Shown piece by piece: positions 55,855 through 64,000 of a stretch of 64,000 nt of DNA (the first letter of the stretch is position 1; every line of letters starts with the position of its first letter). Source of the DNA: Roseateles sp. DAIF2 (lineage in GTDB: Bacteria; Pseudomonadota; Gammaproteobacteria; Burkholderiales; Burkholderiaceae_C); NCBI RefSeq assembly GCF_015624425.1, contig NZ_CP049919.1, positions 3,224,001 through 3,288,000 on the forward strand. The letters are read 5' to 3'. A program made the translations under genes and the position numbers. The notes under the pieces are model-generated. The model was not told where the DNA came from. It saw only the letters and a list, made by a program, of their open reading frames with translations, and did not search any database.

Positions 55855-56817
55855 ATGAACAAACCGCTTGAAGCCCGCCTCCTGGCCCCCGACCATGAGG
55901 GCGATCTCGGGCCCTCGTCCCAGGAGGGCGCGCAGACCGAGTACGAGAGCCTGCCGGGGCTGAACTTCAATGTCGCCGATCCGCATGCCGAGGCCCGCAG
56001 CGGCGACGGGCGCGGCGAGGCCGCCGGCACCGAACACGAAGGCGCCGTCGGCGGCAGCGAGTCCGCTGCGCTCGGCAGCCGCGCGCTGCTGGACCCGCTG
56101 GGCGGCAGCTATGAGCTGCGCGAATCGGGCCAGCTGCAGCCCGAGGTCATCATCGGCACCGACGACCGGGTGCGCGTCGGTGCCACCGGCAGCTACCCCT
56201 GGCGCGCGATCTGCGCGCTGCGCATCACCGCCGCGAACGGCCGGCAGTACATCGGCACCGGCTGGTTCATCAGCCCGCGCACCGTGATCACCGCCGGCCA
56301 TTGCGTCTTCATGCACAACGAGGGCGGCTGGGCGCGCTCGATCGAGGTCATCCCCGGCCTGAACGACGCGAGCCGCCCCTTCGGCAGCGCCTCCAGCGGC
56401 AATCTGCGCAGCGTCACCGGCTGGACCCAGTCGCGCAACCGCGAGTTCGACTATGGCGCCATCATCCTGCCCGCCAATGCGCGACTGGGCGAACGCACCG
56501 GCTGGTTCGGCCTGGCGGTGCGCGACGACGCCTTCCTGCGCGCCGCCAACCTGAACCTCTCCGGCTACCCCGGCGACAAGGGCGGCAGCCAGCAATGGTT
56601 CATGGCCCAGCGCACCAAGAGCCTGTCGGCGCGCGTCATCACCTACGACATCGACACGATGGGTGGCCAGAGCGGCTCGCCGGTCTGGGTGCTGCAGAAC
56701 GGCCAGCGCTACGGCGTCGGCGTGCACACCAACGGCCATGGCTCGGGCAACTCCGCCACCCGCATCGAGACCAATGTGTACAACCGCATGGTCGCGTGGA
56801 AGAACGAGGGGCAGTGA
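55855..56817 (+). CDS. Trypsin-like serine protease (S1 family, glutamyl-endopeptidase-like)
   Basis: A 320-residue protein. The catalytic triad is visible as His in VITAGHCVF, Asp in FDYGAIILP and Ser in MGGQSGSPVWVL. The residues around the Ser and the WRAICALRI start resemble bacterial glutamyl endopeptidases (S1B). About 110 residues of acidic, Gly/Glu-rich sequence precede the protease domain and could be a pro-region. No classical signal peptide is visible, so export route is unclear. The gene is followed after 36 bases by a small beta-domain gene. Confidence 0.87.
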   Translation: MNKPLEARLLAPDHEGDLGPSSQEGAQTEYESLPGLNFNVADPHAEARSGDGRGEAAGTEHEGAVGGSESAALGSRALLDPLGGSYELRESGQLQPEVIIGTDDRVRVGATGSYPWRAICALRITAANGRQYIGTGWFISPRTVITAGHCVFMHNEGGWARSIEVIPGLNDASRPFGSASSGNLRSVTGWTQSRNREFDYGAIILPANARLGERTGWFGLAVRDDAFLRAANLNLSGYPGDKGGSQQWFMAQRTKSLSARVITYDIDTMGGQSGSPVWVLQNGQRYGVGVHTNGHGSGNSATRIETNVYNRMVAWKNEGQ

Positions 56818-56853
56818 GACTCTCTAGCTAACAAACGAGCAAGGACCGGGGCG

Positions 56854-57099
56854 ATGGAGCTGCAGCTGCTGCGCGCCGACGGCTCACCCGCCGCCGACGC
56901 GCTGGTGAGCCTGAGCGATGCCCCGGTGCCGATGCCGGACCTGGCCGCGGTCGCCGATGCCGCCGGCCGGGTCTCGCTGGAGCTGCCGCCGCTGCCGGGC
57001 CGCTTCGTCTTCAACGTCTGGCTGGATGGCCGCAGCCATGAGCTGCCCTGCCATCTGGCCACGCCCGTCGACCGCCTGGTGCTGCGCCTACCGGGCTGA
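56854..57099 (+). CDS. Small carboxypeptidase-regulatory-like beta-domain protein
   Basis: An 81-residue protein, MELQLLRADGSPAADALVSL..., with the pattern of a single Ig-like/carboxypeptidase-regulatory beta sandwich: LVSLSDAPVP, DAAGRVSLELPPLPGRFVFNVWLDGRSHEL. Such domains are usually parts of larger secreted proteins; here it stands alone without a signal peptide. It follows the serine protease closely and may be its partner or inhibitor, by context only. Its 3' end overlaps the convergent M14-type gene by 12 bases. Confidence 0.6.
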   Translation: MELQLLRADGSPAADALVSLSDAPVPMPDLAAVADAAGRVSLELPPLPGRFVFNVWLDGRSHELPCHLATPVDRLVLRLPG

Positions 57100-58833
57100 C
57101 GACAAGCCCGTGCCGAGCAGGCCGTCCCAGTACAGCGCGCAGCCGCGCAGCACCAGCTCCGTCTGGATGCGCTGCGCGAAGCGCATCGCCGGCCCGTAGA
57201 TGGTCTCGTCGGGGATCTCGCTGATCAGGGTGAAGGGCACCGTCGAGCGGCTGTCCTCGTTGACCAGGCAGGGAATGCCGTTCAGCAGTGGGTAGGTCCA
57301 TTCACCGCCATGGGCGCGCCACAGGCGCTGCTGGCGCTCGTTGAACTCGCGCAGCTCGGCATCCTCGGCCAGTTGTGCCGTCAGCGCGCGCAGAAAGGGC
57401 AGGCCGTCGCGGCCCGGGTGCTGGCGCAGGATCAGGAAGAAGCCCTTGGGCAGAGCCCAGTCCTCGGCGCGCGGCGGCAGGTAGCCCGAGAAGGGCCGCG
57501 TCCATTCATGCGCCGGATAGCCATGCAGGCTGAAATGCAGGCCGGCGCCGGTCAGCGCGATCGCGCGCAGCCGCGCCGCCTTCTCGCCCAGCCGCGTCGC
57601 ATCGTCCAGGTTGTCGCGCGCCTCCAGATCGTCGCCCAGCGCGGTGAAGCGCGCCGCATGGGCCATATGGCGCGGATGGTCGCGGCTGAGCCGGTGGTGC
57701 AGCGCCGCGCCGTCCGGGTTCTCCAGCGCCACCAGCGCGTAATGGGCCTCCGGCTCGCCGCGCTGCAGAGCCTCGGCCGCGCGCAGCGCGCCGATCACGC
57801 CCGAGCTCTCGTTGCCATGCTGGCCGGCGCTGATCACCACGCCGGGCTTCGCGCCGCGCCGGTGCAGCAGCGTCACCGGCCGGCCCTGGTGCGAGCGGAA
57901 CTCGTGGCGCTCGCCCGGCAGCGCGGCCAGCAGGGTCTGCACCTGCTCCGGATGCAGCGGCGCCTCCAGCTCGGCCAGGCTGCGCGGCAGCGGGGTCGGC
58001 GGCAGCGGCGCGGGCGGATCGTCGGCGCCGGCCAGGCGCAGGCGCAGCCGGCTGGCACCGCTGCTGGGGCGCAGCAGCGGCACGATCTGGCCCGGCCGCA
58101 GGCGGCGGTCGCCCGGGGACCGGCCGGCGCGGCGCTGGAAGAACTCCAGCAGCGAGAAGTACAGGTCCTCATGCAGGGCCTCGCGGGTGCTGATCAACTC
58201 CTGACCCCAGTCCAGCGGCCGTTCGATGCCGCCGGTCTCGATCTCGATCAGCAGGCGTTCGAAGTAGGGTTCCTCGGCCGGCCAGTCGCGTGCGGCCACC
58301 GCGGCCAGCACCGCGTCAAACAGCGCGCGGTAGTCGCTGTGCAGCGCGCCCTCCTCCAGCCGGCCGCCGCCCGCCGGCCACCAGCGCAACCAGGCGGTCG
58401 GCGCGCCCTGCGCGTCGATCGGCAGGAACAGCTCGAGCGGCGCGCCCTCGTCCCGCGTGATCCGCACCCGCCCCGGCGCCAGTGCCGCATCCGTCACGAA
58501 GTCCAGGCGCTCCGCGCGCGACAGCAGCCCGGCCAGCGGATAGGCCTCGGCGCGCAGACGCTGCAGCTGAGCCGGCGGCGTGGCGATCTCCACCCGCCGC
58601 GCCGCCAGCCCCAGCTCCTCCAGGAAATGATGCAGCAGCGGCTTGTAGGCGCTGCGCAGCTCGGCATTGATGCCCAGCCGCGCCAGCCGCTGCTCGGCCG
58701 CGCGCCGCGCCCCCTGGTCCTCGAACAGCCAGGCCTCCAGCCGGCGCGGCTTCTCGCGCGCGGCGCGCTCCAGCAGCTGCTCCAGGGTGCGCGGCAGCTC
58801 CAGTTCGAGCAGGGTGGCGGGCGCGAAGCTCAT
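57088..58833 (-). CDS. M14-type metallocarboxypeptidase-like protein
   Basis: A 581-residue cytoplasmic protein. The C-terminal half has zinc-ligand motifs of M14 peptidases: His339 and Glu342 in SAGQHGNESSGVIGALRAA and a later His in LHFSLHGYPAHEW (about residue 434). The N-terminal about 300 residues (LELPRTLEQLLERAAREKPR, ELISTREALHEDLYFSLLEFF) form an unrecognised extra domain. It ends the five-gene biosynthetic-type operon, with a 4-base overlap to the preceding ATP-grasp gene. It could trim or hydrolyse the peptide made by the ligases, for maturation or self-protection; this is inference. Confidence 0.8.
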   Translation of the reverse strand: MSFAPATLLELELPRTLEQLLERAAREKPRRLEAWLFEDQGARRAAEQRLARLGINAELRSAYKPLLHHFLEELGLAARRVEIATPPAQLQRLRAEAYPLAGLLSRAERLDFVTDAALAPGRVRITRDEGAPLELFLPIDAQGAPTAWLRWWPAGGGRLEEGALHSDYRALFDAVLAAVAARDWPAEEPYFERLLIEIETGGIERPLDWGQELISTREALHEDLYFSLLEFFQRRAGRSPGDRRLRPGQIVPLLRPSSGASRLRLRLAGADDPPAPLPPTPLPRSLAELEAPLHPEQVQTLLAALPGERHEFRSHQGRPVTLLHRRGAKPGVVISAGQHGNESSGVIGALRAAEALQRGEPEAHYALVALENPDGAALHHRLSRDHPRHMAHAARFTALGDDLEARDNLDDATRLGEKAARLRAIALTGAGLHFSLHGYPAHEWTRPFSGYLPPRAEDWALPKGFFLILRQHPGRDGLPFLRALTAQLAEDAELREFNERQQRLWRAHGGEWTYPLLNGIPCLVNEDSRSTVPFTLISEIPDETIYGPAMRFAQRIQTELVLRGCALYWDGLLGTGLSSAR

Positions 58834-60101
58834 GCCGGCTCCAGCGCCCGGGTGTCGGCGAAGAACTGCTGCTCCAACGCGCGGATGCGCTGCGTGTCCT
58901 GCTCCAAGGTCTCCAGCCGCGGATGGAACAGGCCCACCATGCCCAGCGCGGTCTTCAGGTCGGTGGTCGGCTGCAGCAGGTCGCCCGGCTTGACCCATTG
59001 CTTGGTGCTGACGAAGGACGGCAGCGCGGCGATCTCGGACCAGATGAAGTCGCGTGCCAGCCGGCCGCCGCGTGGCGCCACCAGCAGCAAATGGCCGCAA
59101 TGGCCGCGGAACTCCGGCGCCTCCTGCAGCCGGCGCTCGAAGCCGGCCGGGTTCAGGAAGGTCTCGACCGTCGCGCTGACATGGTTCTCGCCGCTGACCG
59201 CGGTGGTCAGGCGCGGATCCAGGCTGCCATGCATGCGCGCGTTCAGCTCGATCAGGCTCGGGCCCTCCGGCGTGTCCATGATCTCCAGATGGCTGGCGCC
59301 ATAGCGCAGCTCCAGCGCGTCCAGTACCGCGAAGGCGTAGTCGATCAGCGCGCGGTAGCGCGACTCGCGGTGGTCCACCACCAGCATATGCTCGAGCCGC
59401 GGCGCGGCGCGGCGGTCGCGCTCGACCTGCCACAGGCTGACCAGCCGGTGCCGGCCCTCGAAGCTGACCGAGTCGACGATGTATTCCTGGCCCTGGCTGC
59501 AGCGCTGCACCAGCACGCCCTCGTTGCGGTCCTCGTAGAAAGACAGGCCATCCAGCACCGCCGCGGCGGCCTCGCGCACCTCCTCCTCGCTGCGGCAGAT
59601 GCGCACGCCGCGCACGCCGGCGCTGCGCGTCGGCTTCAGCACCACCGGCAGGCGCGGCCGCGCCCAGTCCAGCGCCTCCTCCACCGTGCGGGCCAGCAGC
59701 TGCTCCGGCGCGCGCAGCCCGGCGCGGCGCACCGCCTCGGTCATCAACTCCTTGTCGCGCCGCGCGGCCGAGCTGGCCAGCGGGTTGCGCCAGGGCAGGT
59801 CCAGCGCCTCGCCCAGGCGATCCACCAGCTCCAGCGCGCTGTCGAAGCCATGCAGGATCAGGCCAATGCCCAACGGCCGCAGCGCCGCCAGGGTGGCATC
59901 GAAGTCGCCCTCATGCACCAGGCATTGCTGGTAGTCGGCGCGCTGCAGCTGCTCGACATGCTGGCGCGGCAGATTCGGGCTGCTCAGCAGATGGACGCAG
60001 CGCAGGCCGTAGCTGCGCAGGGCCGGCGCCAGGTAGGCGGCGGTCGAGAAGCCGTCGACGATCAGGACGGTCTCCAGGGGTTTGTATCCAACAGCGGTCA
60101 T
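58830..60101 (-). CDS. ATP-grasp ligase (first of two)
   Basis: A 423-residue cytoplasmic enzyme. The ATP-grasp fold is visible: pre-ATP-grasp domain (ETVLIVDGFSTAAYLAPALR), nucleotide-binding Lys in LPVVLKPTRSAGVRGVRIC, then YIVDSVSF and the metal-binding acids and Asn in HLEIMDTPEGPSLIELNARMHG. ATP-grasp enzymes join a carboxylate to an amine through an acyl phosphate. LIELNARMHG resembles the D-Ala-D-Ala ligase/BacD dipeptide ligase group. It overlaps both neighbours by 4 bases. Substrates unknown. Confidence 0.88.
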   Translation of the reverse strand: MTAVGYKPLETVLIVDGFSTAAYLAPALRSYGLRCVHLLSSPNLPRQHVEQLQRADYQQCLVHEGDFDATLAALRPLGIGLILHGFDSALELVDRLGEALDLPWRNPLASSAARRDKELMTEAVRRAGLRAPEQLLARTVEEALDWARPRLPVVLKPTRSAGVRGVRICRSEEEVREAAAAVLDGLSFYEDRNEGVLVQRCSQGQEYIVDSVSFEGRHRLVSLWQVERDRRAAPRLEHMLVVDHRESRYRALIDYAFAVLDALELRYGASHLEIMDTPEGPSLIELNARMHGSLDPRLTTAVSGENHVSATVETFLNPAGFERRLQEAPEFRGHCGHLLLVAPRGGRLARDFIWSEIAALPSFVSTKQWVKPGDLLQPTTDLKTALGMVGLFHPRLETLEQDTQRIRALEQQFFADTRALEPA

Positions 60102-61246
60102 GCGGGTTCCAGCGTGAGATAGAGATAAGCGCGGCGTTCGCGCGAGGCGATGCGCTGCGGCCCCAGGCGCAGGCGCAGCCCGGGCAGCTGCAGCTGCTGC
60201 GGCGCGGCGCAGTCCCAGCCCTCGGGGTCGCCTTCCAGCAGGAAGTCCACCCGCGCATAGGCGCGCGGCGCGCGGCGCGCCGGCGCTGCGGGCAAGACCT
60301 GGCCCTGCAGCTTGGCCAGCAGCGCCTCGACCAGGTCGAAGCCATAGGCATCGCGCACCAGCTCGCAGATGAAGCTGCCGGCGATGCGCGGATTGATGTC
60401 GATGATGTGGGGCCGCTCGCCCACCAGGATCACGTCCAGGTGCAGCGGCCCCCAGCCCAGGCCGGCGGCCGCCGCGGCTCGCTCCGCCGCTTCGGCCAGC
60501 GCGTCCAGCAGGGCCGGCGCCAGGTCCAGCTCGGCGCTGTAGCCGCGCTCGACGAAGTCCTCGCCATGGCGCTTGAGCTTGCGCAGCGCGCCGACATAGC
60601 GGCCGTCGAACAGCTCGACGCAGTATTCCGGCCCGGTCAGGAACTCCTCGACCAGGGCAGTGCCGGACAGCGACCAGCGCCGCTCGCCGACGAAGTCCGC
60701 CGCCAACAGCGCCAGCTGCGCCAGCGCCTCCTCGGCATCGGCGCAGCGCCGCACGCCCAGGCTGGAGATGCCCTCGGCCGGCTTCACCACCACCGGATAG
60801 CGCAGCCCCGCCAGCGCCGCGCGGCGCGCGGCCGCATCGGCCCCGGCCGGGATCTCGACGGCCGCGCCGACCGGCAGGCCGGCCTCGCGCAGCCGGCGCT
60901 TCTGCGCCGCCTTGTCGGCCACCGCCTCGATCGCCGCCGGGTCCGGGCCGGGCAGGCCCAGGGTCGCGGCCGCGGCGGCGGACTGGCGCGCGTACTTGTC
61001 GTTCGCGTTCGCCAGCAGCAGCGGCGCGCCGGCGGCGTGATGGCGCAGTTGCGCCAGCAGCGCCTCATGCGTCGGCGCGATGTCCAGCACCTCGACCGCG
61101 GGATCGAAGGCGCCGCGCAGCCCGTCCTGCGGCCGGCCCAGCAGCAGCACCCGCCAGCCGCGCGCCAGCGCGCTGCGCGCCAGGGTCTGGCTGGTGCCGG
61201 TCGGGATCGCGCCGATCAGCGCCAGGCAATGGGGGCCCGCGCTCAT
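60098..61246 (-). CDS. ATP-grasp ligase (second of two)
   Basis: A 382-residue ATP-grasp protein. Motifs: LRYPVVVKPAEGISSLGVRRC (glycine-rich loop with Lys), LVEEFLTGPEYCVELFDG and PHIIDINPRIAGSFICELV (metal-binding Asp and Asn). It differs in sequence from the upstream partner, so the two probably add different building blocks in order. ATG 61246 is within the 4-base overlap with the exporter gene. The product is likely a short peptide or amide. Confidence 0.87.
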   Translation of the reverse strand: MSAGPHCLALIGAIPTGTSQTLARSALARGWRVLLLGRPQDGLRGAFDPAVEVLDIAPTHEALLAQLRHHAAGAPLLLANANDKYARQSAAAAATLGLPGPDPAAIEAVADKAAQKRRLREAGLPVGAAVEIPAGADAAARRAALAGLRYPVVVKPAEGISSLGVRRCADAEEALAQLALLAADFVGERRWSLSGTALVEEFLTGPEYCVELFDGRYVGALRKLKRHGEDFVERGYSAELDLAPALLDALAEAAERAAAAAGLGWGPLHLDVILVGERPHIIDINPRIAGSFICELVRDAYGFDLVEALLAKLQGQVLPAAPARRAPRAYARVDFLLEGDPEGWDCAAPQQLQLPGLRLRLGPQRIASRERRAYLYLTLEPA

Positions 61247-62637
61247 CTGGCGCCTCCCAGCCCGCGGCTCAGCACCAGGCAGGCCAGCAGCAGCAGAGTG
61301 GCATAAGCGAAGGCCGTCCCCGCGCCCCGCCCCGCCCCGGCCATCAAGGCGCCCAGGGTCGCGACGCCCAGCGCCGCGCCGAGCTGGCGCGCGGTGTTGA
61401 ACACCGCCGACACCGCGCCATAGCGCCCGGCATCGGCCTGGCCCAGCAGATGCGAGGTCAGGGCCGGGATCGTCAGCCCGCCGCCGAAGGGCATCAGCAG
61501 CAGGGCCGGCAGCAGCCACAGATAGGGCGGCTGCGGCAGCCACAGCAGCAGCGCCGCGGCATAGAGATAGCCGGCCGCCGTCAGCGCCAGGCCCAGGCGC
61601 ACCGGCCACAGCGCGCCGCGCCGCGCCGCCAGCCGGCCGCTGGCCACATTGCCCAGCATCACGACCACGAAGGGCAAGAGCGCCAGCCCGGCCTGTAGCG
61701 CGCTGTAGCCGCGCTCGCGCTGGAAGTAATGGCTCAGCACGAAGATCAGGCCGTAGAAGGCCAGATTGGTCAGCAGGCCCAGCGCCAGGCTGAGCGAGAT
61801 CGCCGGCCGCGCCAGCAGCGGCAGCGGCAGCACCGGGGCCGCCGCGCGGCGCTGCGAGCGCCAGAAGCCGATGCCGGCGATCAGGGCCAGCGCCAGGCCG
61901 ACCAGCACCAGCGGATCGCCCAGGCCGCGCGCGCCGGCCTCCAGCAGCGAAGCGGTCAGGGCCGCGAACAGCAGCAGCGCCCAGGCGTTGCCGGCCAGGT
62001 CCAGCGGACGCTCGCTCTGGCGCGGCGTCTCGGCCACATGGCGGCGGCTCAGGAACAGGCCCAGCGCGCAGATCGGCAGATTGATCCAGAAGATCGAGGG
62101 CCAGTCCCAGCGCAGCAGCAGCGCGCCGCCCAGGGCCGGGCCGGCCGCGCTGACCAGGCCGCCGACGGAGCTCCACAGCCCGATCGCGCGCGCGCGCAGC
62201 GCCGCGTCGCCGGCGCTGGCATGGCTGATCAGGGCCAGCGAGCCCGGTAGCAGCAAGGCGGCGGCCAGGCCCTGCAGCGCCCGCCCGGCCACCAGCGCGC
62301 CGATGCCCGGCGCCAGCGCGCAGGCCGCCGAGGCCAGTGCGAACAGCGCCAGCCCGGCCTCGAAGACGCGCCGGCTGCCATAGCGGTCGCCCAGGGCGCC
62401 GCCGCTGAGCATCAGGCTGGCCAGCGCCAGGGTGTAGGCGTCGACCACCCATTGCTGCAGATGTACCTGCCCCGCCCCGCCGCCCAGCGCGGCGCCGATG
62501 CTGGGCAGCGCGACATTGACGATGGTGACGTCCAGCAGCACGACCACGAAGCCGCAGCTGGAGGCCAGCAGGGTCAGCCACAGCCCGGCCGGCAGGCCTT
62601 CGCGCTCGGCCGTCCAGGTTCCGGAGGACACGCTCAT
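61243..62637 (-). CDS. MFS exporter, DHA2 (14-helix) type
   Basis: A 464-residue inner-membrane protein with about 14 hydrophobic helices. DHA2 markers: DVTIVNVALPSI in helix 1, motif A (SGGALGDRYGSRRVFEAG) and the antiporter motif C (SAAGPALGGALL). Such drug:H+ antiporters export small molecules. Lying between the oxygenase and ligase genes with 4-base overlaps, it probably exports the pathway product and may give self-resistance. Confidence 0.92.
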   Translation of the reverse strand: MSVSSGTWTAEREGLPAGLWLTLLASSCGFVVVLLDVTIVNVALPSIGAALGGGAGQVHLQQWVVDAYTLALASLMLSGGALGDRYGSRRVFEAGLALFALASAACALAPGIGALVAGRALQGLAAALLLPGSLALISHASAGDAALRARAIGLWSSVGGLVSAAGPALGGALLLRWDWPSIFWINLPICALGLFLSRRHVAETPRQSERPLDLAGNAWALLLFAALTASLLEAGARGLGDPLVLVGLALALIAGIGFWRSQRRAAAPVLPLPLLARPAISLSLALGLLTNLAFYGLIFVLSHYFQRERGYSALQAGLALLPFVVVMLGNVASGRLAARRGALWPVRLGLALTAAGYLYAAALLLWLPQPPYLWLLPALLLMPFGGGLTIPALTSHLLGQADAGRYGAVSAVFNTARQLGAALGVATLGALMAGAGRGAGTAFAYATLLLLACLVLSRGLGGAR

Positions 62638-63740
62638 GCGGCGCGCTCCTCGATCAGGCTGGCGCGGTTCGCGGCCGGCCGCGGCGCCAGCGCCTCGGGC
62701 AGCAGGCGCGGGTCGAACACCCGCTCGCTGCGCCGGCCGAAGGCGCGGAAGTTCCACAGGCTGGTGCTGACGAAGATGCGCTGCAGCCAGCGGTGCGCGC
62801 GCCCCTGCGCGTCGAAGCTGGGCGCAAAGCGGTCGCGCGAATGCAGCGCGAAGCGGTTGTTGATGAAGACCAGGCGGCCGGGCTGGATCGCGATGCCCTC
62901 CGACACCGCGCGCACCTCGCGGTACAGATTGTCCAGCGCCTGGCGCGCGCGGGCGTTCACCGGCAGCACCATGTCCGGGTAGAAGGCCACCGTGACCCGC
63001 GGCAGCTCCAGCGGGCCGGAGACGATCGGGCACAGCTCGGTGTTGTCGCGCGGCGTCGGCGTCGCGCCGCGCCAGCGGTAGGGCACGCGGATGATGTAGT
63101 GGCGGCCGTAGAGCTGCTCCAGGTCCTCATCGCTCAGCCGCGCCAGCGCCAGCCGCGCGTCGGACACCCGGGTCAGCGGGCCGGCCCCGTCCGGCGCGCC
63201 GCGCAGGCCCAGCAGCAGCAGCGCCAGCGGCGAGGTGTCGCCCTCCTGCATGAAGGCCTGGGCGGCGTTCTCGATATGGAAGTCCAGCTCCACCTCGGAA
63301 CCCAGGCCGGTGTACTCCTGCGCGTTCTCCTTGTGCGGCACCAGGTTGTTGACCAGCTCGCGACCCTCGTGCGAGATCGAATAGGGCTCGGCGATGGTCG
63401 CGCCCAGCGCGACCAGCAGGTTCTCGCTCAGCACCCCGTCCTTGAACTGGCGGCCGGTCTCGCTGAACTGCGGGCTGCCATGGATGCCGGTGTCGATCGG
63501 CAGGCCGTCCAGCACCAGATAGGGATGGGCGGCGCCGTTGGAGGATTTGATCACCTCCAGCAGGCGCACCAGCCGCTCCGGGAAGCGCGCGTAGACCGCG
63601 CGGCGCAGCGCCCCGATATAGGCCGCGCCGCCGGCCGGGTCGTACTCGATGCCGCGCAGCGCGAGGCGGATCTCGTCCGCCTCGGCCGGACTGAGCTCGA
63701 AGCGAAGATGGTTCTGTGAGTTCTGAGAGTTTTGAGACAA
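62634..63740 (-). CDS. Clavaminate-synthase-like Fe(II)/2-oxoglutarate oxygenase
   Basis: A 368-residue cytoplasmic oxygenase of the group that includes the free-amino-acid hydroxylases VioC and AsnO. Iron ligands are His155 and Glu157 (LDFHIENAAQAF) and His300 (FINNRFALHSRDRF), with the 2-oxoglutarate-binding Arg in AHRWLQRIFVS. The HxE variant is typical of this subgroup. The start is TTG 63740, with AGGAGG about 4 bases upstream; the open frame extends to a TTG at 63779. The first codons encode three SQN repeats. As first gene of the operon it probably hydroxylates an amino acid that the ligases then join. Confidence 0.87.
   Translation of the reverse strand: MSQNSQNSQNHLRFELSPAEADEIRLALRGIEYDPAGGAAYIGALRRAVYARFPERLVRLLEVIKSSNGAAHPYLVLDGLPIDTGIHGSPQFSETGRQFKDGVLSENLLVALGATIAEPYSISHEGRELVNNLVPHKENAQEYTGLGSEVELDFHIENAAQAFMQEGDTSPLALLLLGLRGAPDGAGPLTRVSDARLALARLSDEDLEQLYGRHYIIRVPYRWRGATPTPRDNTELCPIVSGPLELPRVTVAFYPDMVLPVNARARQALDNLYREVRAVSEGIAIQPGRLVFINNRFALHSRDRFAPSFDAQGRAHRWLQRIFVSTSLWNFRAFGRRSERVFDPRLLPEALAPRPAANRASLIEERAA
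63711..63737 (-). repeat. Triple 9-base repeat encoding (Ser-Gln-Asn)3
   Basis: Directly after the TTG start of the oxygenase gene three imperfect 9-base units encode SQNSQNSQN. Synonymous changes between the units (Gln CAA or CAG, Ser TCT or TCA) show that it is not a very recent expansion. Unit gain or loss would keep the frame. Confidence 0.65.
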
Positions 63741-63883
63741 GGGACCTCCTGTGCGTGATGACACGCCATGTGATGACAAGCGATGGGCGCCAGCCTAGGT
63801 TTGTTCCAATATCTCAAAAACAAAACTAAAGAGAAAATGTTATCTGTTGAACTGATATAGAGCGGTCTCGGCCGCGGGCTGTC
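63741..63883. promoter_or_regulatory. Divergent promoter region between the peptide operon and lysR
   Basis: This 143-base AT-rich gap separates the oxygenase-led operon from a LysR regulator. It includes an A/T-rich stretch near 63800-63860 and two TGATGACA copies (about 63756-63776) 8-12 bases apart. A LysR protein typically binds between divergent genes like these and activates the operon when its effector is present. Confidence 0.5.
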
Positions 63884-64000
63884 ATGGATCTTGCTTTGCT
63901 GCACACCTTCCGCACCGTGGTCGAGGCCGGCGGCGCGCTCAAGGCCTCCCAGAGCCTGGGCTGCGCCCAGTCCAACGTCACCGCGCGGCTGAAGACCCTG
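63884..64000 (+). CDS. LysR-family regulator, N-terminal fragment
   Basis: The 39 codons visible begin MDLALLHTFRTVVEAGGALK, then ASQSLGCAQSNVTARLKTL, the classic LysR helix-turn-helix. The rest lies outside the window. It is divergent from the five-gene oxygenase/ligase/exporter operon and is its likely regulator. Confidence 0.88.
   Translation, partial: MDLALLHTFRTVVEAGGALKASQSLGCAQSNVTARLKTL

Follow-up and report, generated by a model that had tools for sequence, protein, structure and literature searches.

A five-gene operon with a 2-oxoglutarate oxygenase and two ATP-grasp ligases in Roseateles sp. DAIF2: a candidate pathway for a hydroxylated peptide

The stretch of DNA examined here (the window) comprises 64,000 nucleotides, positions 3224001-3288000 of the 6.01-Mb single-contig genome of Roseateles sp. 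DAIF2, and carries near its end a leftward operon of five genes. These encode a clavaminate-synthase-like Fe(II)/2-oxoglutarate (2OG) oxygenase (OX), a DHA2-type exporter of the major facilitator superfamily (MFS), two ATP-grasp ligases (LigA and LigB) and a protein resembling M14 metallo-carboxypeptidases (M14), with a divergent LysR gene beside OX. With moderate confidence, these genes can be read as a non-ribosomal peptide pathway that operates without a nonribosomal peptide synthetase (NRPS). In such a pathway OX would hydroxylate a free small amino acid, more likely acidic (Asp or Glu) than Arg or Asn; the two ligases would link the hydroxylated residue to one or two ordinary amino acids, with LigB probably forming the exported product; the DHA2 protein would export the peptide under the control of LysR; and M14 would hydrolyze peptide amides, in the simplest case disarming or recycling product that re-enters the cell through oligopeptide importers. 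It is likely that the operon makes a peptide, and quite probable that the DHA2 protein exports whatever is made. By analogy with phosphonoalamide and mangotoxin biosynthesis, the most likely product is a hydroxylated di- or tripeptide.

The five minus-strand frames between 57088 and 63740 are joined by four ATGA overlaps of 4 bases each (62634-62637, 61243-61246, 60098-60101, and 58830-58833), and are considered real genes rather than chance open reading frames (ORFs) because homologs exist. This layout agrees with an earlier, model-generated reading of the same DNA (the original prediction), as does the divergent LysR gene starting at 63884, which is complete in the genome at 289 aa. The kinds of protein named in that prediction are likewise borne out by Pfam domains (TauD/PF02668, MFS_1, ATP-grasp_4 in each of two distinct ligases, and AstE_AspA_cat), M14 being recognized by the fold of its AlphaFold model although its Peptidase_M14 score falls under the cut-off.

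The core of the operon recurs in other genomes. Scanning one genome per species yields 114 OX relatives; the analysis covers the 80 best loci, and 25 of these are close loci (best-segment OX identity ≥60%). OX, MFS and LigB genes adjoin in 23 of the 25, and LigA is also present in 22, in the genera Variovorax, Burkholderia, Paraburkholderia, Robbsia, Erwinia, and Pantoea; the exceptions are a Trinickia locus (L029) and a fragment (L075) without the MFS-LigB set, and L017, which lacks LigA. The fetched flanks of the other 55 loci contain neither LigA nor LigB, except for one 24% match (L069). An OX tree built from the window and 40 of the 80 loci (41 rows) places the 18 ligase-bearing rows inside one starred set of 19, in which Trinickia is the sole ligase-free row. 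Among 399 sampled genomes of the host family, OX was found only in the window's own genome and is lacking from the two other genomes of the genus, a rarity that points to horizontal acquisition by the host. Searches of plasmids with LigB and of proteins with LigA inform on distribution only.

LigB and the exporter appear to move together, apart from OX, as indicated by pairwise distances and by the case of Robbsia. Across 20 loci, the correlation of pairwise distances is 0.991 for LigB-MFS, compared with 0.918 for OX-MFS, 0.912 for OX-LigB, 0.879 for LigA-MFS, 0.870 for LigA-LigB, and 0.818 for OX-LigA. Among seven lineage representatives the corresponding values are 0.961, 0.547, 0.478, 0.558, 0.489, and 0.397. 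The Robbsia LigB and MFS proteins are closest to those of Variovorax (74-76% and 73-74% identity, respectively) versus 53-55% and 51-53% to those of Burkholderia and Paraburkholderia, whereas Robbsia OX is 70-73% identical to the Burkholderia, Paraburkholderia, Erwinia, and Pantoea proteins and 62-63% to those of Variovorax. LigB exceeds the cut-off of the PRK07206 model (NF005543; 308.2 versus 302), whose own name is 'hypothetical protein', and resembles the dapdiamide A synthase DdaF (NF041595) over almost its full length, although its 214.6 bits exclude it from that family (cut-off 840). LigA and LigB are also far from the BacD alanine-anticapsin ligase model (NF053745), scoring 20.7 and 12.9, respectively, against a cut-off of 850. 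The nearest LigA relative (P0251, 59%) and an M14 relative (P0007, 63%) are both found on JGI contigs of 28,987 bases, which are probably one contig with a window-like cluster.

OX is very probably an amino-acid hydroxylase. Its fold matches the AsnO/VioC/KDO/CAS group, with AsnO and KDO1 closest, and it is 22-27% identical to the AsnO, KDO1, and VioC oxygenases. Alignment to AsnO places the putative iron ligands at H155, E157, and H300; these residues, together with R317 and R321, are unvarying across 19 OX rows, and we take the iron-triad and C-terminal 2OG/carboxylate-arginine roles of the aligned residues to apply to OX. By alignment, the iron triad and C-terminal arginines are common to OX, AsnO, KDO1, and VioC. 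Unlike these enzymes, OX has an invariant R-W-R at 222-224, and the counterpart of AsnO D241 is A252 (Val in two of the 19 rows). According to an excerpt of PMC9968057, changing Asp241 to Asn shifts AsnO to Asp. Replacement of this residue, which sets Asn specificity in AsnO, speaks against an L-Asn 3-hydroxylase of the AsnO kind and calls for caution with the VioC/AsnO-type label of the original prediction. An arginine hydroxylase of the VioC kind (TIGR03946; 64.7 versus a cut-off of 418.6) and a GntD enduracididine hydroxylase (NF041363; 83.1 versus 345) are rejected on scores far below cut-off.

The distant OX loci suggest what kind of molecule is hydroxylated. OX was called in 77 of the 80 loci. 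In at least 64 of these, a transporter gene belonging to any of five groups lies no more than 5 kb away; such genes accompany 21 of 23 close loci and 43 of 54 distant ones, the counts being lower bounds because the ORF caller misses genes (e.g., the MFS gene of L010, found by tblastn). The transporters beside distant OX genes are SBF-like, AEC-type, or MFS proteins, the SBF-type protein tested (L016) scoring slightly under its Pfam cut-off (21.8 versus 24.3). Since distant OX genes lack LigA and LigB and mostly have a transporter nearby, and active-site residues are identical across the 19 rows, OX probably acts on a free small molecule. That this molecule is acidic has a little less than an even chance, and the available hints favor it without being decisive. 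A gene of the Asp/Glu racemase family lies beside OX in three Legionella loci and one alphaproteobacterium, with both members tested above the Pfam gathering score and the alphaproteobacterial one passing TIGR00035, which hints at an acidic substrate. In the window genome, the gene that follows RidA on the far side of LysR has threo-3-hydroxy-L-aspartate ammonia-lyase as its best model among those listed (NF005454; 272.6, under the cut-off of 452), followed by threonine ammonia-lyase (254.9). An alternative, lactam hint comes from HyuA, whose best model is caprolactamase alpha (437 versus a cut-off of 1000).

Several OX loci have features of their own. Legionella L042 (9998-16157; also L047 and L069, the latter with OX in pieces) combines OX with a flavin-reductase-like gene, the racemase-family gene, a 453-aa protein without Pfam domains, an MFS transporter, and an ATP-grasp ligase (family scans cover L042 alone), as if the same kind of pathway had been assembled a second time. 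Pantoea L004 (4590-14601) carries a third ATP-grasp ligase and two further enzymes that exceed their model cut-offs, one BioF/Kbl-like and pyridoxal phosphate-dependent (PRK07505), the other an NtaA/DmoA-type FMN monooxygenase (TIGR03860). At eleven Bartonella loci (L068, L071-L073, and L076-L082), OX aligns as two pieces, as if decaying, with an MFS gene kept in most and a D-2-hydroxyacid dehydrogenase gene in many. A small cysteine-conserved protein, mostly of 124-159 aa, is encoded in the vicinity of the OX genes of Variovorax, Pseudomonas, and Massilia kin (e.g., L009 15090-15470, L033 13219-13623, and L058 7285-7671); the one member tested has no Pfam or NCBIfam match.

M14 has a different history from the core. 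Its Peptidase_M14 score is 15.9 (gathering score 21.6), AstE_AspA_cat passes (30.6 versus 25), and its AlphaFold model shows an M14 carboxypeptidase fold, with matches over about residues 213-577; H339, E342, and H437 are unvarying in 30 sequences. The part encoded by the first 215 codons is confidently modeled, has no Pfam domain, and is hardly covered by fold matches, which can be explained by the catalytic domain filling the fold list. M14 occurs at E 1e-60 or better in five of 20 whole genomes, and by coordinates all five copies are in the cluster. In the M14 tree, the window copy belongs to an 11-row set (100/100), with Roseateles and Paucibacter as named members, apart from the Variovorax and Burkholderia copies. 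Forcing it together with ten Variovorax rows, or with Variovorax and six Burkholderia rows, is rejected by the approximately unbiased (AU) test (p = 2.95e-5 and 3.7e-4, respectively, values weakened by the choice of groups after the tree was seen). The label 'cluster' requires six changes on this tree, and 39 of 500 shuffles do equally well. From these sequences, M14 appears to have been recruited into such clusters separately at least twice, once in the window lineage and once in the Variovorax/Burkholderia lineage; this count is a minimum, as the tree also groups Variovorax rows (P0028, P0030, P0032, P0042, and P0046) whose surroundings were not seen. Repeated recruitment into the same type of operon speaks for a functional connection and suggests that the hydrolase is older than the pathway. 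That M14 hydrolyzes the operon's product is a tentative assignment.

LysR is 70-71% identical to its Variovorax counterpart, and the window's spacer between OX and LysR can be aligned with those of five Variovorax loci. The Variovorax spacers contain the palindromic ATCTGATTATCAGAT (one base differs in one locus), and the window counterpart, ATCAGTTCAACAGAT, is the sole match in the window to a pattern that was written after the alignment was seen. Beyond LysR lie RidA-like, hydroxyaspartate ammonia-lyase-like, HyuA, and HyuB genes and the genes of an oligopeptide ABC importer. Its DppA1 is 81-84% identical to the cluster-adjoining gene in all five Variovorax loci (one cut by a contig end), higher than OX (75-79%) or the ligases (47-58%), and DppB, DppC, and DppD follow in the four loci where the contig goes on. 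In OV700, HyuA and HyuB are located ~10 kb further on. DppA to DppD lie about 5-11 kb from LigB in Paraburkholderia, a distant Dpp set (27-55%) is ~6 kb from OX in Erwinia L028, and the best DppA1 relatives in Robbsia are on a different contig. Other relatives of DppA1 in 398 genomes of the family reach at most 63%. The Dpp-type importer is treated as a neighbor and not as a proven part of the pathway.

Three alternatives were weighed. Staphylopine is exported and then taken back by an importer, and staphylopine-type systems use the opine-forming enzymes CntL and CntM. In a comparable metallophore-like cycle, a hydroxylated acidic peptide would bind metal, be exported by the MFS protein and be retrieved by the Dpp-type importer. 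This importer adjoins the cluster in Variovorax as in the window genome and lies near it in Paraburkholderia, which fits such a cycle, and DppA1 scores best with NikA (183 versus a cut-off of 393) and lower with CntA (116 versus 800), both under cut-off. Nevertheless, 13 of 20 genomes, ten of them with the ligase cluster, have no DppA1 relative at E 1e-80, and HyuAB-DppA sets (60-68%) occur without OX or ligases in the stretch in the two family genomes examined, so that the importer may belong to a separate, catabolic locus. The ORFs listed for the window genome revealed no TonB receptor, although no search was aimed at one. Overall, a metallophore is improbable.

A catabolic or detoxifying operon, in which the oxygenase, M14, dehydratase, and importer degrade a peptide from the environment while the ligases have a different role, would account for HyuAB and the dehydratase across LysR and for the surroundings of cluster-free M14 relatives, which have HyuA beside or near them in L108-L110 and Dpp-type genes in L006, L007, L104, and L108. 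L103 has neither next to M14; eight of the 13 family M14 matches outside the window were fetched, with L105-L107 judged by eye. This explanation is nonetheless very improbable: two ATP-dependent ligases and an exporter-type MFS protein share the operon with OX, and it is this core, not M14, that is conserved. Alternatively, OX could act after ligation, on a di- or tripeptide, as MboA does on Leu-Ala-Arg; in the excerpt of PMC13185094 on mangotoxin, oxidation requires the tripeptide. Homologs with identical active-site residues in taxa whose OX loci lack LigA and LigB speak against this order of events, which we regard as unlikely.

The preferred reading, a peptide pathway starting from a free hydroxylated amino acid, also has points that weigh against it. 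M14 is missing from most clusters, with five of the 25 close loci carrying it and a sixth a fragment of it; of the five-gene order that the original prediction proposed to seek elsewhere, the core recurs, whereas M14, of other origin in the window, is not a constant member. The distance test draws on 20 loci that are non-independent (nine Burkholderia and five Variovorax), and the seven representatives were chosen by the analyst. No transporter is seen at 11 of the 54 distant OX loci. The case for an acidic substrate is further weakened by the Legionella racemase, which scores best with a cysteate racemase model (76 versus a cut-off of 190), by the absence of a visible racemase from the window's own cluster, by the lack of matches to the dehydratase and RidA beside the Variovorax clusters, and by the derivation of the acidic-pocket argument from a sequence alignment.

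If the peptide pathway is real, it represents a compact natural-product family, spread over several genera, that is expected to escape mining for NRPS genes or for ribosomally synthesized and post-translationally modified peptides (RiPPs), and the greater variability of the ligase-exporter pairs around a conserved oxygenase would offer a natural experiment in the re-dressing of peptide warheads. A broader scenario, which is doubtful, is that a hydroxylated acidic amino acid, produced by one oxygenase family and handed to a transporter, is an unrecognized secreted metabolite of many bacteria (Serratia, Photorhabdus, Pseudomonas, Bartonella, Bacillus, and Massilia kin). Ligases would have been added in one clade and, separately, in Legionella, dressing the metabolite as a peptide that enters competitors via oligopeptide importers; ligase-exporter pairs would have been swapped between oxygenase backbones, and M14 recruited repeatedly for self-protection.

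The features of the locus are given in the table. The GC content of the operon is 73.4%, versus 69.1% for the whole window. No terminator- or promoter-like pattern was found at the 3' end of the operon (56700-57150), and a frame that by eye resembles a trypsin-like protease (55855-56817, plus strand) is convergent to it.

Table. Coordinates of the operon and its divergent promoter region within the window
Feature	Position	Strand	Remarks
Oxygenase OX (Fe(II)/2OG, clavaminate-synthase-like)	62634..63740	-	368 codons from TTG
DHA2-type MFS exporter	61243..62637	-	464 aa
ATP-grasp ligase LigA	60098..61246	-	382 aa, start ATG 61246
ATP-grasp ligase LigB	58830..60101	-	423 aa, PRK07206 subfamily, DdaF-like
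M14-fold metallo-carboxypeptidase-like protein (M14)	57088..58833	-	581 aa
Divergent LysR gene, start only in window	63884..64000	+	Remainder outside window (L002 1885-2754)
Candidate LysR site, palindrome-like ATCAGTTCAACAGAT	63842..63856	-	Divergent promoter; aligned with ATCTGATTATCAGAT of Variovorax
AGGAGG, candidate ribosome-binding site of OX	63745..63750	-	4 bases upstream of TTG 63740

No described pathway matching the gene set was found in the literature searched (mostly open-licence), in keeping with the original prediction, which recognized no described cluster in it. For Pantoea, an excerpt of PMC11350110 lists 12 antibiotic clusters. Judging from parts of PMC4010436, the size of pantocin B (17.3 kb, 35% GC) and the gene content of PNP-1 do not fit. 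PNP-3 (8 genes, 8.5 kb, 49.1% GC), compared with L004 (~8.9 kb, 50.9% GC) by size and GC, may be the Pantoea relative's cluster, a match that would concern L004 rather than the window (PMC4010436, PMC7744662, and PMC9570785, each in part). Pantoea HiVir likewise combines an MFS gene with two ATP-grasp genes, and differs, in the portion of PMC8417944 available, by a phosphoenolpyruvate (PEP) mutase, which is not annotated in L004.

Among characterized systems, the dapdiamide comparison involves LigB alone. The fungal E-64 pathway, as excerpted from PMC12568646, also passes a 2OG oxygenase product to an ATP-grasp ligase, but has an epoxysuccinate warhead and an amide bond synthetase for the second step. 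Two different ATP-grasp ligases with a tailoring enzyme and an exporter in one cluster, as in the window and 22 of the 25 close loci, are most closely paralleled by two pathways. In phosphonoalamide biosynthesis, PnaC builds a dipeptide to which PnaB attaches the unusual residue, with transporters in the cluster; by our own reading of the excerpt, the unusual amino acid joined to the dipeptide is an Asp analog (PMC11867202). This warhead, phosphonoalanine, is made by PEP mutase and an aminotransferase, however, and the passages concerned mention two oxidoreductases and a hydrolase nearby and name no 2OG oxygenase or M14 protein. The mangotoxin cluster mboABCDEF similarly combines an oxidase with two ATP-grasp ligases, MboC and MboD, which make Leu-Ala-Arg for the oxidase, whereas that enzyme is a diiron HDO rather than a 2OG enzyme, acts on the tripeptide and is accompanied by a deiminase (PMC13185094). 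Compared with these two-ligase pathways, the operon in Roseateles sp. DAIF2 is set apart by a 2OG oxygenase that would act on a free amino acid and by its recruited M14 protein.

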